Below, in pieces: positions 16,202 through 25,460 of a stretch of 32,351 nt of DNA. The stretch's first letter is position 1; every line of letters starts with the position of its first letter. Location: positions 1-32,351 of IMG/VR virus record IMGVR_UViG_3300028025_003127; one strand, given 5' to 3'. The stretch is from a virus. A program made the translations under genes and the position numbers. A model generated the notes under the pieces. It was not told the DNA's origin, ran no database searches, and saw only the letters and a program-made list of their open reading frames with translations.

Positions 16202-16261
16202 AATGAAGCAACGAACCCGGCAAGCCTCTCAACGATGCTCAAACCGCCGGGTCACTATTTG

Positions 16262-18705: not shown

Positions 18706-18723
18706 TGCCCCCTTTCGGGGGCA
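18706..18723 (-). repeat. GC-rich hairpin inside leftward operon
   Basis: TGCCCCC/GGGGGCA with a 4-base loop separates two small genes. In the leftward direction there is no U-tract but an AAGGAG ribosome site follows at once, so it may stabilise or separate the mRNA segments rather than terminate. Confidence 0.6.
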
Positions 18724-18964: not shown

Positions 18965-18997
18965 TGTCTTATCTCCTGTACCGCTTGGTACATCAAC

Positions 18998-19026: not shown

Positions 19027-19036
19027 GGGCTTGACA
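19021..19036. promoter_or_regulatory. Palindromic operator candidate joining the two -35 boxes
   Basis: TGTCAAGGGCTTGACA has 7-base inverted arms around GG. Each arm contains the -35 box of one of the two diverging promoters. A dimeric repressor bound here would cover both. The XRE-type regulator encoded at 19068 is the natural candidate; no binding evidence exists. Confidence 0.5.
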
Positions 19037-19067
19037 GAATAATATATTCGTGTGGTATATATAGAGC
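19031..19067 (+). promoter_or_regulatory. Rightward promoter, probably leaderless, before the XRE regulator
   Basis: TTGACA (19031-19036) is followed by TGTGG-TATATA (19051-19061) and, six bases on, ATG 19068. The 19-base spacer is long for sigma70. The -10 to ATG spacing equals that of the three TGTGGGATACT elements, and 8 of 11 bases match. Transcription would start at or beside the ATG. Confidence 0.6.
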
Positions 19068-19292
19068 ATGATTAGAGGACTTACACAACAGGAGCTGGCA
19101 CGGCGGACTGGTTTCACCCAGCCACGTATCAGCGACTACATGACAGGCAAAAAGGCTCCGGGTGATACCAGCCTTCTCAAGCTCGCAGAAGCGATGGACA
19201 TGGATCCAGCGGAACTCTCAAAGCAGTTGATGCTACGTAGGACACTCCGCAAGGGTAAAGCACCGGAAGCACCAGAGCAACCGGGCGAATAG
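19068..19292 (+). CDS. XRE-type HTH regulator, small
   Basis: 74 residues. The HTH is clear: LTQQELARRTGFTQPRISDYMTGKKAPGDTSLLKLAEAM (residues 4-42). The rest is a short basic tail, with no dimerisation or protease domain, so it looks Cro-like and not like a full CI repressor. There is no ribosome site before the ATG, which fits a leaderless mRNA. It sits at the junction of two divergent early operons and is likely to regulate them. With no integrase found, this does not prove lysogeny. Confidence 0.8.
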   Translation: MIRGLTQQELARRTGFTQPRISDYMTGKKAPGDTSLLKLAEAMDMDPAELSKQLMLRRTLRKGKAPEAPEQPGE

Positions 19293-19622: not shown

Positions 19623-20617
19623 TGAATACATATACATTATTACAAGGGCATTGCCTCGATGTGTTGAAGACATTACCGGATGAGTCTGTGCAGACCTGCA
19701 TTACATCACCTCCATACTTTGGGCTAAGGGACTATGGATGCGGTGGGCAGATTGGCTTGGAAAGTACACCAGAACAGTTTGTTCAATCATTGGTTGATGT
19801 GTTTGCGGAAGTTCACCGAGTGCTAAAGAAAGACGGCACACTGTGGCTCAACCTTGGTGATAGTTATGCTGCACAGCGTAGCGGTACATCCATGCCAGCA
19901 GAAACGTTAGCGGGTGGTGTTGGTGGTAAAGGTAACAAGGCTGCACACCGTGGCCATGATGGCGCAGCTGGACACGCTCACCGTAATGCCAGCAATATAG
20001 GACTAAAACACAAAGACCTGATAGGCATCCCTTGGCGTGTTGCTTTTGCCCTTCAGCAGTACGGCTGGTATCTACGGCAGGACATCATCTGGCACAAGCC
20101 TAACCCTATGCCTGAATCGGTAACCGACCGATGCACCAAGGCACACGAGTACATCTTTCTGCTGTCAAAGTCAGACCGCTACTTTTACGACAATGAAGCC
20201 ATCAAGGAACCTGTATCCGATACAAGCCTGAAACGTGCCGAGTACGGATGGAACTGCGACAGACCAAGCACGAAGAACGCAAGCATGGGTGGCACAGGCA
20301 TTCACACTGAGAAGATGGGAACACGCTTTGTCAATCCTTCCGGACGCAACAAGCGAAGCGTCTGGACTGTATGCACAAAGCCCTACAAGGGCGCACACTT
20401 TGCCGTATACCCAACCGAACTGATACGACCTTGTATCCTTGCCGGTAGCCGTCCCGGTGACACCGTGCTTGACCCATTCAACGGGAGCGGTACAACTGGT
20501 TTTGTATCAATGGAAGAACGGCGCAAGTACATCGGGATTGATATCAACGATGAGTACTTAGCCATTGCAGATGCTCGAATCAAATCAGCTCAGGTTCAAG
20601 AACAGATGGACTTTTAG
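19622..20617 (+). CDS. DNA methyltransferase, beta class (N6-adenine or N4-cytosine)
   Basis: 331 residues, starting at GTG in a TAGTG overlap. The catalytic motif TSPPYFG is at residues 28-34 and the SAM-binding DPFNGSGTT at 284-292, so the motif order is beta class. The TSPPY form is common in N4-cytosine enzymes but is also found in adenine enzymes, so the modified base is unsettled. A variable region between the motifs (about 80-250) would give target specificity. No restriction nuclease lies beside it, so the enzyme probably protects the phage DNA or alters gene control. The following sigma gene overlaps its stop (TAGTG). Confidence 0.88.
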   Translation: MNTYTLLQGHCLDVLKTLPDESVQTCITSPPYFGLRDYGCGGQIGLESTPEQFVQSLVDVFAEVHRVLKKDGTLWLNLGDSYAAQRSGTSMPAETLAGGVGGKGNKAAHRGHDGAAGHAHRNASNIGLKHKDLIGIPWRVAFALQQYGWYLRQDIIWHKPNPMPESVTDRCTKAHEYIFLLSKSDRYFYDNEAIKEPVSDTSLKRAEYGWNCDRPSTKNASMGGTGIHTEKMGTRFVNPSGRNKRSVWTVCTKPYKGAHFAVYPTELIRPCILAGSRPGDTVLDPFNGSGTTGFVSMEERRKYIGIDINDEYLAIADARIKSAQVQEQMDF

Positions 20618-21438
20618 TGCAGGTAAGACCAAGCATTATTCGGCAGACGCTCCGGGCTCTATCCAAGGCACCGGAGCGTTTGTTGTCTCACGACGAAATG
20701 ATTCTGCTCCACTACGGCTGGGCTAACGGCATCCAAAAGGATGAGTGCTTTGATGCTATGATTCGGCACAACTTCGCATTCATCCGCGAAGTATGCAAGG
20801 TCATCAAGCACAAGGAACACTTTGTAGATGCTTGCCAATACTGCGTTGAAGGCTTGATTCGTGCAATCGAAAAGTGGGAACCTGAGCGTGGGTTGCGCTT
20901 CTCTACTTACGCACATCCTTGGATTTACCAGAAGCTTAGGCGGTATCAATCCAACCAATACCGCACAATCCGCATAGCCGAACACGCACTGGTCAAGTGG
21001 CATAAGTTGAAACGCTTCTACGTCATACTGGAACTGGAGTTGCGTAGACCACCAACCGATGAAGAGTTATCCGAACGCTCTGGGATGACCCTTGAAACCA
21101 TTGAGATATGCCGCACGGCTTCCGGCATCGAGCCAGTCTCCATTGAGACCCCAGTACAAGGTAGTCAGTTGGTGCTAGGTGATACTGCGATATTTGGATC
21201 TACGCAGAGCGCAGAGGATGAGTATTTCTCCGAGTCTGAAGGCGGTACGCTGATGACGGCTTTAGGCGCTCTTGATGACGAGATCCGGCAGATGATAGCC
21301 TTGCACCTTGGGCTTGATGGACGTGTACCGCAGACCATCCACATGGTAGCCAGCCGCTACCGCATACCTCCGGCAGTAGTCAAAGAGCGCATCCACAAAG
21401 CACTAGCGCAACTAAGGGTAATCCATGAAGCATCTTGA
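20617..21438 (+). CDS. Sigma-70 family RNA polymerase sigma factor
   Basis: 273 residues; GTG start in a TAGTG overlap. Region 2 is visible at about 45-120 (NFAFIREVCKVIKHKE ... GLIRAIEKWEPERGLRFSTYAHPWIYQKLRR), including the core-binding and -10 recognition part. Region 3 follows (LRRPPTDEELSERSGMTLETIE), and region 4 ends the protein (ALDDEIRQMIALHLGLDGR ... IPPAVVKERIHKALAQLRVI). There is no region 1.1. It could direct polymerase to late promoters; the repeated TGTGGGATACT element before the head genes is the best target candidate. That link is inference. It overlaps the nuclease gene by 14 bases. Confidence 0.85.
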   Translation: MQVRPSIIRQTLRALSKAPERLLSHDEMILLHYGWANGIQKDECFDAMIRHNFAFIREVCKVIKHKEHFVDACQYCVEGLIRAIEKWEPERGLRFSTYAHPWIYQKLRRYQSNQYRTIRIAEHALVKWHKLKRFYVILELELRRPPTDEELSERSGMTLETIEICRTASGIEPVSIETPVQGSQLVLGDTAIFGSTQSAEDEYFSESEGGTLMTALGALDDEIRQMIALHLGLDGRVPQTIHMVASRYRIPPAVVKERIHKALAQLRVIHEAS

Positions 21439-24764: not shown

Positions 24765-24794
24765 TTGACAGTTTATACCGCTAGGGTATATATT
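24765..24794 (+). promoter_or_regulatory. Promoter of the ssDNA-binding-like gene
   Basis: TTGACA (24765-24770) is followed by overlapping -10 candidates TATATA (24787, spacer 16) and TATATT (24789, spacer 18). It precedes a 110-base structured leader. Confidence 0.7.
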
Positions 24795-24898
24795 GATGTG
24801 TCGGTGATGGATGTGAAAATGCCCGCAAGGGTGGCCCCAGTGGTTCCGGTAAAGACCTTTTCATCATCGACATATCAAAGAGCCAGTGGCTCAAGGAG
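24793..24898 (+). promoter_or_regulatory. Structured leader RNA with a 19-bp stem
   Basis: TTGATGTGTCGGTGATGGA (24793-24811) can pair with 24860-24878 over 19 base pairs, three of them G-U, and the inner loop holds a CCCGCAAGGG hairpin (24822-24831). A second hairpin, GAGCC-AGT-GGCTC (24880-24892), ends right before the AAGGAG ribosome site (24893-24898) of the gene at 24906. The strength and position suggest a cis-acting control RNA. No known riboswitch class was recognised. Confidence 0.55.
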
Positions 24899-24905
24899 TT
24901 TAGTA

Positions 24906-25400
24906 ATGGGATTTTTTGCACAACACGGGAAGTTCTCGGAAGGTGGCGGCAAGAAGTACAGTGTAGCCGAGCAGGGTATCTACATCTGTGCGCTGATTGA
25001 TTGCGAAGCGGTACAGGGTAAATCATTCGATGACCCCAACGTTCTCGAACCCAACTTTAAGTGGGTGTTCGAATCGACCGAGGTTGGTGACGATGACGGC
25101 CAGCCGTTCCGCTTCATGCAGTACACCAAGACCTACTACGGCAACGAGAAAGCCAAGCTCACCATTCTCTTGGATGGCATGGTTGGTCGGATGACTAGCC
25201 AGCAGTTTGCAGAGCTTGACATGGAAGCCCTCAAAGCCAAGTCATGGCAGGTAGTGGTAGGAACCAGACAGAAGATGAATGGTGAACTAACCAACGTGAT
25301 CGAGACCGTGAAGCCGGTAAAGGTTGCAACTACAAAGCCACTACGCAAGGTTACACCGCAACCGGTGGATGACATCGTAGATCCGTTTGAAGGCGAGTAG
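24906..25400 (+). CDS. Putative ssDNA-binding-like replication protein
   Basis: 164 residues. The start ATG 24906 has AAGGAG eight bases before; an upstream TTG at 24765 is part of the promoter and would be wrong. The body is strand-rich with an OB-like order (GIYICALIDCEAVQGKSF ... FKWVFEST ... FMQYTKTYY ... SWQVVVGTRQKMNGELTNVIETVKP), followed by a basic linker and an acidic tail with Phe (DDIVDPFEGE), as in single-strand-binding proteins. It lies behind the helicase. The call is by fold pattern, tail and position, with moderate confidence. Confidence 0.55.
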   Translation: MGFFAQHGKFSEGGGKKYSVAEQGIYICALIDCEAVQGKSFDDPNVLEPNFKWVFESTEVGDDDGQPFRFMQYTKTYYGNEKAKLTILLDGMVGRMTSQQFAELDMEALKAKSWQVVVGTRQKMNGELTNVIETVKPVKVATTKPLRKVTPQPVDDIVDPFEGE

Positions 25401-25419: not shown

Positions 25420-25452
25420 GGGAGGGGTTAGAATCCCTCCCAACCTTGGGAG
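25420..25452 (+). promoter_or_regulatory. Two mutually exclusive hairpins over a ribosome site
   Basis: Hairpin 1 pairs GGGAGGG (25420-25426) with CCCTCCC (25435-25441). Hairpin 2 pairs CTCCCAA (25437-25443) with TTGGGAG (25446-25452), which holds the ribosome site of the gene at 25461. The two share CTCCC, so only one can form: forming hairpin 1 would free the ribosome site, hairpin 2 would hide it. It looks like a translation switch. Confidence 0.5.
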
Positions 25453-25460
25453 ATAAAACA

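Follow-up and report, generated by a model that had tools for sequence, protein, structure and literature searches.

An apparently exchangeable 5′ leader of a phage gene that most likely protects the transcript and presents the Shine-Dalgarno sequence

What is the function of the structured leader that precedes a 164-aa gene in the viral record IMGVR_UViG_3300028025_003127? The first-pass annotation of the window, i.e. the whole stretch of 32,351 nt that was analysed, had proposed either autogenous control by a binding protein or ligand sensing. Our analysis of this leader favours another answer, to which we give a probability of about 0.6: it represents one of several interchangeable 5′ leaders, namely the long form, and most likely protects the transcript and presents the Shine-Dalgarno (SD) sequence. 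The features concerned are the following.

24765-24794, plus strand: sigma-70-type promoter, TTGACA-18 nt-TATATT, 11/12 matches; its 3′ end overlaps the 5′ arm of the stem
24796-24811, plus strand: 5′ arm of the leader stem (16-bp consensus)
24812-24859, plus strand: inner domain in the long form of the leader; relatives with this form share 92-100% identity here
24860-24875, plus strand: 3′ arm of the leader stem (16-bp consensus)
24880-24892, plus strand: SD-abutting hairpin GAGCC-AGU-GGCUC, found in the long, mid and short forms with covarying stems
24893-24898, plus strand: Shine-Dalgarno sequence AAGGAG, recognised from the sequence
24906-25400, plus strand: 164-aa gene (MGFFAQHG...DPFEGE), coding for a probable single-strand-DNA-binding protein

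The promoter was correctly recognised in the first-pass annotation, and so were the two smaller hairpins: the inner domain contains GCCC-GCAA-GGGU at 24821-24832, which is the CCCGCAAGGG hairpin, as well as a possible GGU/ACC pairing (24842-24844 with 24855-24857), and the second hairpin does end at the SD. The claim of a 19-bp stem with three G-U pairs stands in part only. When 24790-24910 was folded, 19 continuous pairs did form between 24793-24811 and 24860-24878, with G-U at 24798-24873, 24804-24867 and 24810-24861, and the energy of the leader was -43.2 kcal/mol against -30.5 ± 3.1 for dinucleotide shuffles (z -4.07; 1 of 200 shuffles was equally good). However, 24793-24794 are the last bases of the -10 hexamer and 24795-24799 form the discriminator; the bases at 24793-24795, although paired in the window, belong to the promoter and their pairing is not conserved. 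From the usual spacing to the -10 we infer a transcript start at about 24799-24801, which would leave 11-13 of the 19 pairs in the RNA. The RNA would therefore begin with a leader of about 105 nt whose helix has 11-16 bp, i.e. less than was claimed.

The product of the gene, called ssDNA-binding-like before, is a probable ssDNA-binding protein: the C-terminus is acidic, and profile support is weak, with a match to phrog_378 in 2 of 18 members (E 7e-4). The AlphaFold model of the protein was too poor for use (pLDDT 38), and the portal and sigma-factor matches were remote and mixed. The window encodes a phage sigma-70 family factor of its own (20617-21438, plus strand; best NCBIfam profile Sig70-cyanoRpoD, below cut-off), which could concern the promoter at 24765-24794. 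Behind the 164-aa gene (25420-25455, plus strand), two hairpins, GGGAGGG/CCCUCCC and CUCCCA/UGGGAG, are mutually exclusive; the SD of the following gene, GGGAG, lies within the latter, and the pair is a possible switch or coupling element. Elsewhere in the window, at 16216-16252 (plus strand), lies an abiF RNA (RF03085, 57.8 bits) followed by a terminator-like hairpin. This RNA is present in 6 of 27 related phage records, in none of which an Abi_2 (PF07751) protein was found, and such orphan abiF RNAs could counter an AbiF system of the host, either as decoys or as antitoxins.

Relatives were collected by searching IMG/VR with the 164-aa protein (80 listed of 106 matches, plus 17 loci from a second query), mostly on incomplete contigs; none were found in cultured phages or in GTDB genomes. 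Nearly all of them carry a TTGACA...GGTATATA promoter upstream of the gene, and behind this common promoter three forms of leader are found. The long form, that of the window, occurs at about 20 loci among the matches listed. The mid form (L006, L015 and L033) has the outer stem of the long form with a different inside. The short form, at about 70 loci among the matches listed, measures 42-45 nt, counted from the -10 through the SD; where transcription is expected to start it has a GGCAAUAGUGCC hairpin, which a spacer separates from the SD-abutting hairpin; the stem of its first hairpin is only 4 bp and its sequence is nearly fixed, GGCAAUAGUGCC being present in 31 of 37 distinct short leaders. 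In all three forms, then, one hairpin lies at about +1, as predicted from the -10, and another at the SD; one more distant relative (L240) is devoid of any such leader. A pattern search of IMG/VR found the long inner domain only before the 164-aa gene; the sole other match, L085, was discarded as an unrelated stretch containing the motif words by chance, as were the other matches to the short pattern of the mid-form inside, which proved to be unrelated sequence. Several relatives, among them L008, L010, L028 and L067, have long hairpin elements rich in G+C, of three kinds of which GGCAATCGGTACCGCCCGCATAAGGCGGGCATACCGATGCCC is an example, between the upstream gene and the promoter, where the window has a gene end instead.

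Is the stem an RNA structure? RNAalifold, applied to 13 distinct long and mid leaders, returned a 16-bp outer stem (24796-24811 with 24860-24875, one broken cell) together with the GCCC/GGGU and SD hairpins. Standard pairs were found in 97.7% of the cells against 94.2% after shuffling, and sliding the partner by 1-3 columns reduced pairing to 36-51%. Double changes were seen in 11 cells at 6 pairs, as opposed to 2.5 on shuffling, a number reached by 0 of 500 shuffles; since the sequences are related, such shuffle counts are not to be taken as probabilities. The three outermost pairs are broken most often (column pair 7-88 in 4 of 13 leaders, 5-90 and 6-89 in one each), i.e. mostly at the promoter end, as expected if the bases there are untranscribed. 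G-U pairs occupy 36 of the 206 consensus-stem cells of the RNAalifold alignment, which argues for an RNA of the plus strand because an antisense RNA would carry A·C mismatches instead. The leader stem is real, and these observations support the view that it acts as plus-strand RNA. The earlier argument from G-U pairs is thus borne out, the stem being preserved by compensatory and G-C/G-U changes, and pairing lost without compensation, which that annotation had set against its own proposal, was not seen within the long form.

The SD-abutting hairpin is present in 52 of 52 distinct leaders, whatever their form, and always ends at the SD, while its stem varies (GAGC/GCUC, GGGC/GCCC, GAUC/GAUC, GGAC/GUCC, AAGC/GCUU). 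All of its cells (100%) are paired, compared with 87% when the arms are shuffled, and 0 of 2000 shuffles reached as high a value. Predicted accessibility of the SD itself is only moderate (mean unpaired 0.43-0.58), owing to possible weak pairing with the U-rich beginning of the gene, and this counts against the reading that we favour.

The long stem and its inner domain appear dispensable. When leader form was mapped onto a tree built from 85 coding sequences, 19 changes were required, against a mean of 19.6 with shuffled labels, and 9-10 changes are forced for the short and long labels on well-supported branches alone; leader form, as far as the tree tells, does not track the gene. Replacement is clean in two matched pairs of relatives. 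In L056 and L063, the 154 nt that end with the -10 show 99.4% identity and the sequence that begins with the SD hairpin shows 94.4%; the segments in between measure 90 nt and 28 nt, respectively. For L017 and L020, identity is 97.3% on one flank of the leader and 96.2% on the other, and in 12.7 kb this pair has no more than two places without homology, namely the leader and a single small ORF. Judging from these alignments, the forms are swapped as cassettes between the -10 and the SD hairpin in near-identical backgrounds. Since nearly identical proteins and flanks go with either leader, the long stem and the inner domain would not be essential to the gene. The inner domains of the long form are 92-100% identical in spite of differences of 0.25-0.68 at the four-fold sites of the gene, a conservation that may reflect either selection or spread of the cassette by recombination.

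Two side observations belong here. The small-ORF swap (L286:773-1052 versus 34780-35036 of contig G005, L284) lies behind an identical upstream region. Contig IMGVR_UViG_3300042429_000522 (62.4 kb; L282-L285) contains two phage genomes of about 31 kb head to tail, about 69-85% identical where aligned, one with a long and one with a short leader; they could be tandem prophages or an assembly chimera.

The same layout recurs at other promoters of these phages. A survey of 60 pieces of related genomes with 112 other promoter contexts showed that hairpins of at least 5 bp begin 5 nt after the -10 in 14 of the 112 and 6 nt after it in 17, where a single long hairpin can count at both offsets; other offsets gave 0-5. 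A hairpin of at least 4 bp at that position (chance of such a hairpin about 0.10) was found in 23 of 43 other promoter-ORF pairs and abuts the SD in 23/23 cases, many of the 23 being homologous copies of a few leaders, so that independent cases are fewer; 8 of the 20 pairs lacking the hairpin come from the distant contig to which L300 belongs. The sequences of these hairpins vary, in keeping with a structural role. The window itself offers an example.

18973-18991, minus strand: second leader of the same design, with hairpin GUACC-AAGC-GGUAC (18978-18991) at about +1 of a leftward promoter and abutting AGGAG (18973-18977)

The leader of the 164-aa gene thus appears to be an elaborated case of a design used elsewhere in these phages. 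At about 18707-18722 (minus strand) a GCCCCC-GAAA-GGGGGC hairpin directly abuts the SD of a leftward gene, and hairpins of this kind and of the GUACC-AAGC-GGUAC kind both recur before different genes in relatives. At 19031-19070 (plus strand), the -10 of a TTGACA...TATATA promoter lies so close to an HTH regulator gene, about 5 nt ahead of its ATG, that the mRNA would be leaderless; L293 has the same layout.

How could such a leader work? Transcription would start at the foot of the stem or just within it, which would place the 5′ end of the mRNA in a helix. This terminal helix would shield the mRNA from 5′-end-dependent decay, be it by a pyrophosphohydrolase and RNase E or by RNase J. The SD-abutting hairpin would prevent upstream RNA from pairing with the SD and offer the latter to the ribosome. 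The job would be a generic, structural one, for which host factors presumably suffice. That 5′ hairpins can stabilise mRNA is known from E. coli bla with an appended hairpin, from ompA and papA, cited alongside it, and from B. subtilis aprE, and a helix at the 5′ end is known to protect by hindering 5′-end conversion and RNase entry (reviewed in PMC3997798). What the analysis shows is the pairings, their covariation, their placement at the predicted start and at the SD, the replacement by other structured modules and the occurrence of the layout elsewhere; the effects on stability and translation are inferred. Interchange of long, mid and short forms in near-identical backgrounds is expected if all do the same job, and what they share, a structure at the 5′ end and a hairpin abutting the SD, favours a protective and SD-presenting leader. 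One point against a generic cap is that the GGCAAUAGUGCC hairpin and the long inner domain are more conserved than it needs, which spread by recombination could explain.

Another possibility, which we consider unlikely, is autogenous translational control of the kind exerted by T4 gp32, where the product would bind its own leader, with the hairpins as nucleation sites, and block the ribosome when no free ssDNA is left. The gene probably (on weak evidence) codes for an SSB and has its own promoter and a structured leader, with an SD hairpin common to all forms, through which control could still be exerted. The divergence of the leaders is by itself no objection, since T4 and RB69 gp32 repress each other's diverged operators (PMC535899). 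But the long stem and inner domain are absent from phages with nearly identical proteins, so that control through the long stem, as suggested in the first-pass annotation, finds no support where near-identical proteins and flanks carry a 42-45 nt leader instead. A UUAAA-rich stretch of the T4 gp32 type was sought in AAGGAGUUUAGUAAUG and was absent: there are no UUAAA/UAAA repeats and only 13 nt separate the last hairpin from the AUG. Finally, the hairpin-SD design is found at other genes too and is thus not specific to an SSB.

It is also improbable that the inner domain is a sequence-specific module, be it an aptamer for a ligand, a site bound by a protein or an RNA that modifies the polymerase in the manner of HK022 put, the short GGCAAUAGUGCC hairpin and the mid inside being alternative specificities. 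Such a module would account for the high conservation of unpaired inner-domain bases across lineages, for three alternative insides behind one promoter that are swapped with both flanks kept, and for a leader form unlinked to the gene tree. However, equal conservation would result from homogenisation by recombination, the domain occurs only before the 164-aa gene, and a search over the 12.7 kb of L017/L020 for a trans gene co-segregating with leader form found none, except for the swapped small ORF. Rfam, searched at gathering and relaxed thresholds, gave no family for the leader, in keeping with the earlier remark that no known class was recognised; the best hit was the AdoCbl riboswitch, whose score of 14.8 bits (E 1.4) falls short of the cut-off of 50. 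Ligand sensing by the leader finds no support, for the reason already given for autogenous control: 42-45 nt leaders, devoid of the long stem and inner domain, stand before nearly identical proteins. A more specific version, that the three insides are sequence-specific alternatives at one site, recognised by RNA polymerase, by a phage regulator or by a defence system and kept polymorphic by selection, is quite unlikely; if true, close phages would differ in the control of the 164-aa gene or in the rivals with which they can compete.

A very unlikely alternative is that the long stem is an RNase III processing site, whose cleavage would release an mRNA starting near the SD hairpin. There is indeed a helix near the 5′ end of a phage transcript, and the SD hairpin would become the new 5′-terminal structure. 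But a helix of 11-16 bp is short for a typical RNase III substrate; a helix of about 20 bp is not what the relatives keep, and in most of them the same gene is served by a first hairpin of 4 bp, too short to be cut. We rejected as almost certainly wrong the idea that the leader is coding and extends the gene in frame at its N-terminal end: the frame is open from 24765 (24765-25400, 211 codons), but it is disrupted in leaders of 112, 114 and 115 nt as well as in the short forms, L049 has a stop within it, and the changes among long forms, read by hand, are almost all non-synonymous in that frame and yet keep the pairs.

Many transcripts of this phage group appear to start with a hairpin and to have it end exactly at the ribosome-binding site, and one such leader appears to be traded as a cassette between near-identical genomes. 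With natural matched pairs such as L017/L020 and L056/L063, one could measure in a nearly constant background how a leader influences mRNA stability, translation or phage competition.

Three known systems invite comparison. Like the gene 32 operators of T4 and RB69, the leader is a structured 5′ element before a phage gene for a (here probable) ssDNA-binding protein. The T4 gp32-type operator, however, combines a folded element, a 5′ pseudoknot, with more than 40 nt of weakly structured RNA carrying UUAAA/UAAA repeats through the ribosome-binding site (PMC535899); here this RNA is lacking, the short form is predicted to be two plain hairpins, and the leader is replaced wholesale in relatives with the same protein. 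With put of HK022 it has in common that a phage transcript begins with a short structured RNA, but, as far as the description in PMC9378689 goes, its position before a single gene sets it apart. The third comparison is with the stem-loops of E. coli ompA and papA and of B. subtilis aprE. The nearly fixed sequence of the first hairpin of the short form is less like them, and it differs from them in that the hairpin directly abuts the SD, a second helix precedes it, modules are exchanged between phages and stabilisation is predicted. What it has in common with them is a helix, here predicted to lie near the 5′ end, followed by a ribosome-binding site, and an outer stem whose pairing is conserved while its sequence varies, a trait of 5′-terminal stem-loops that stabilise mRNA.
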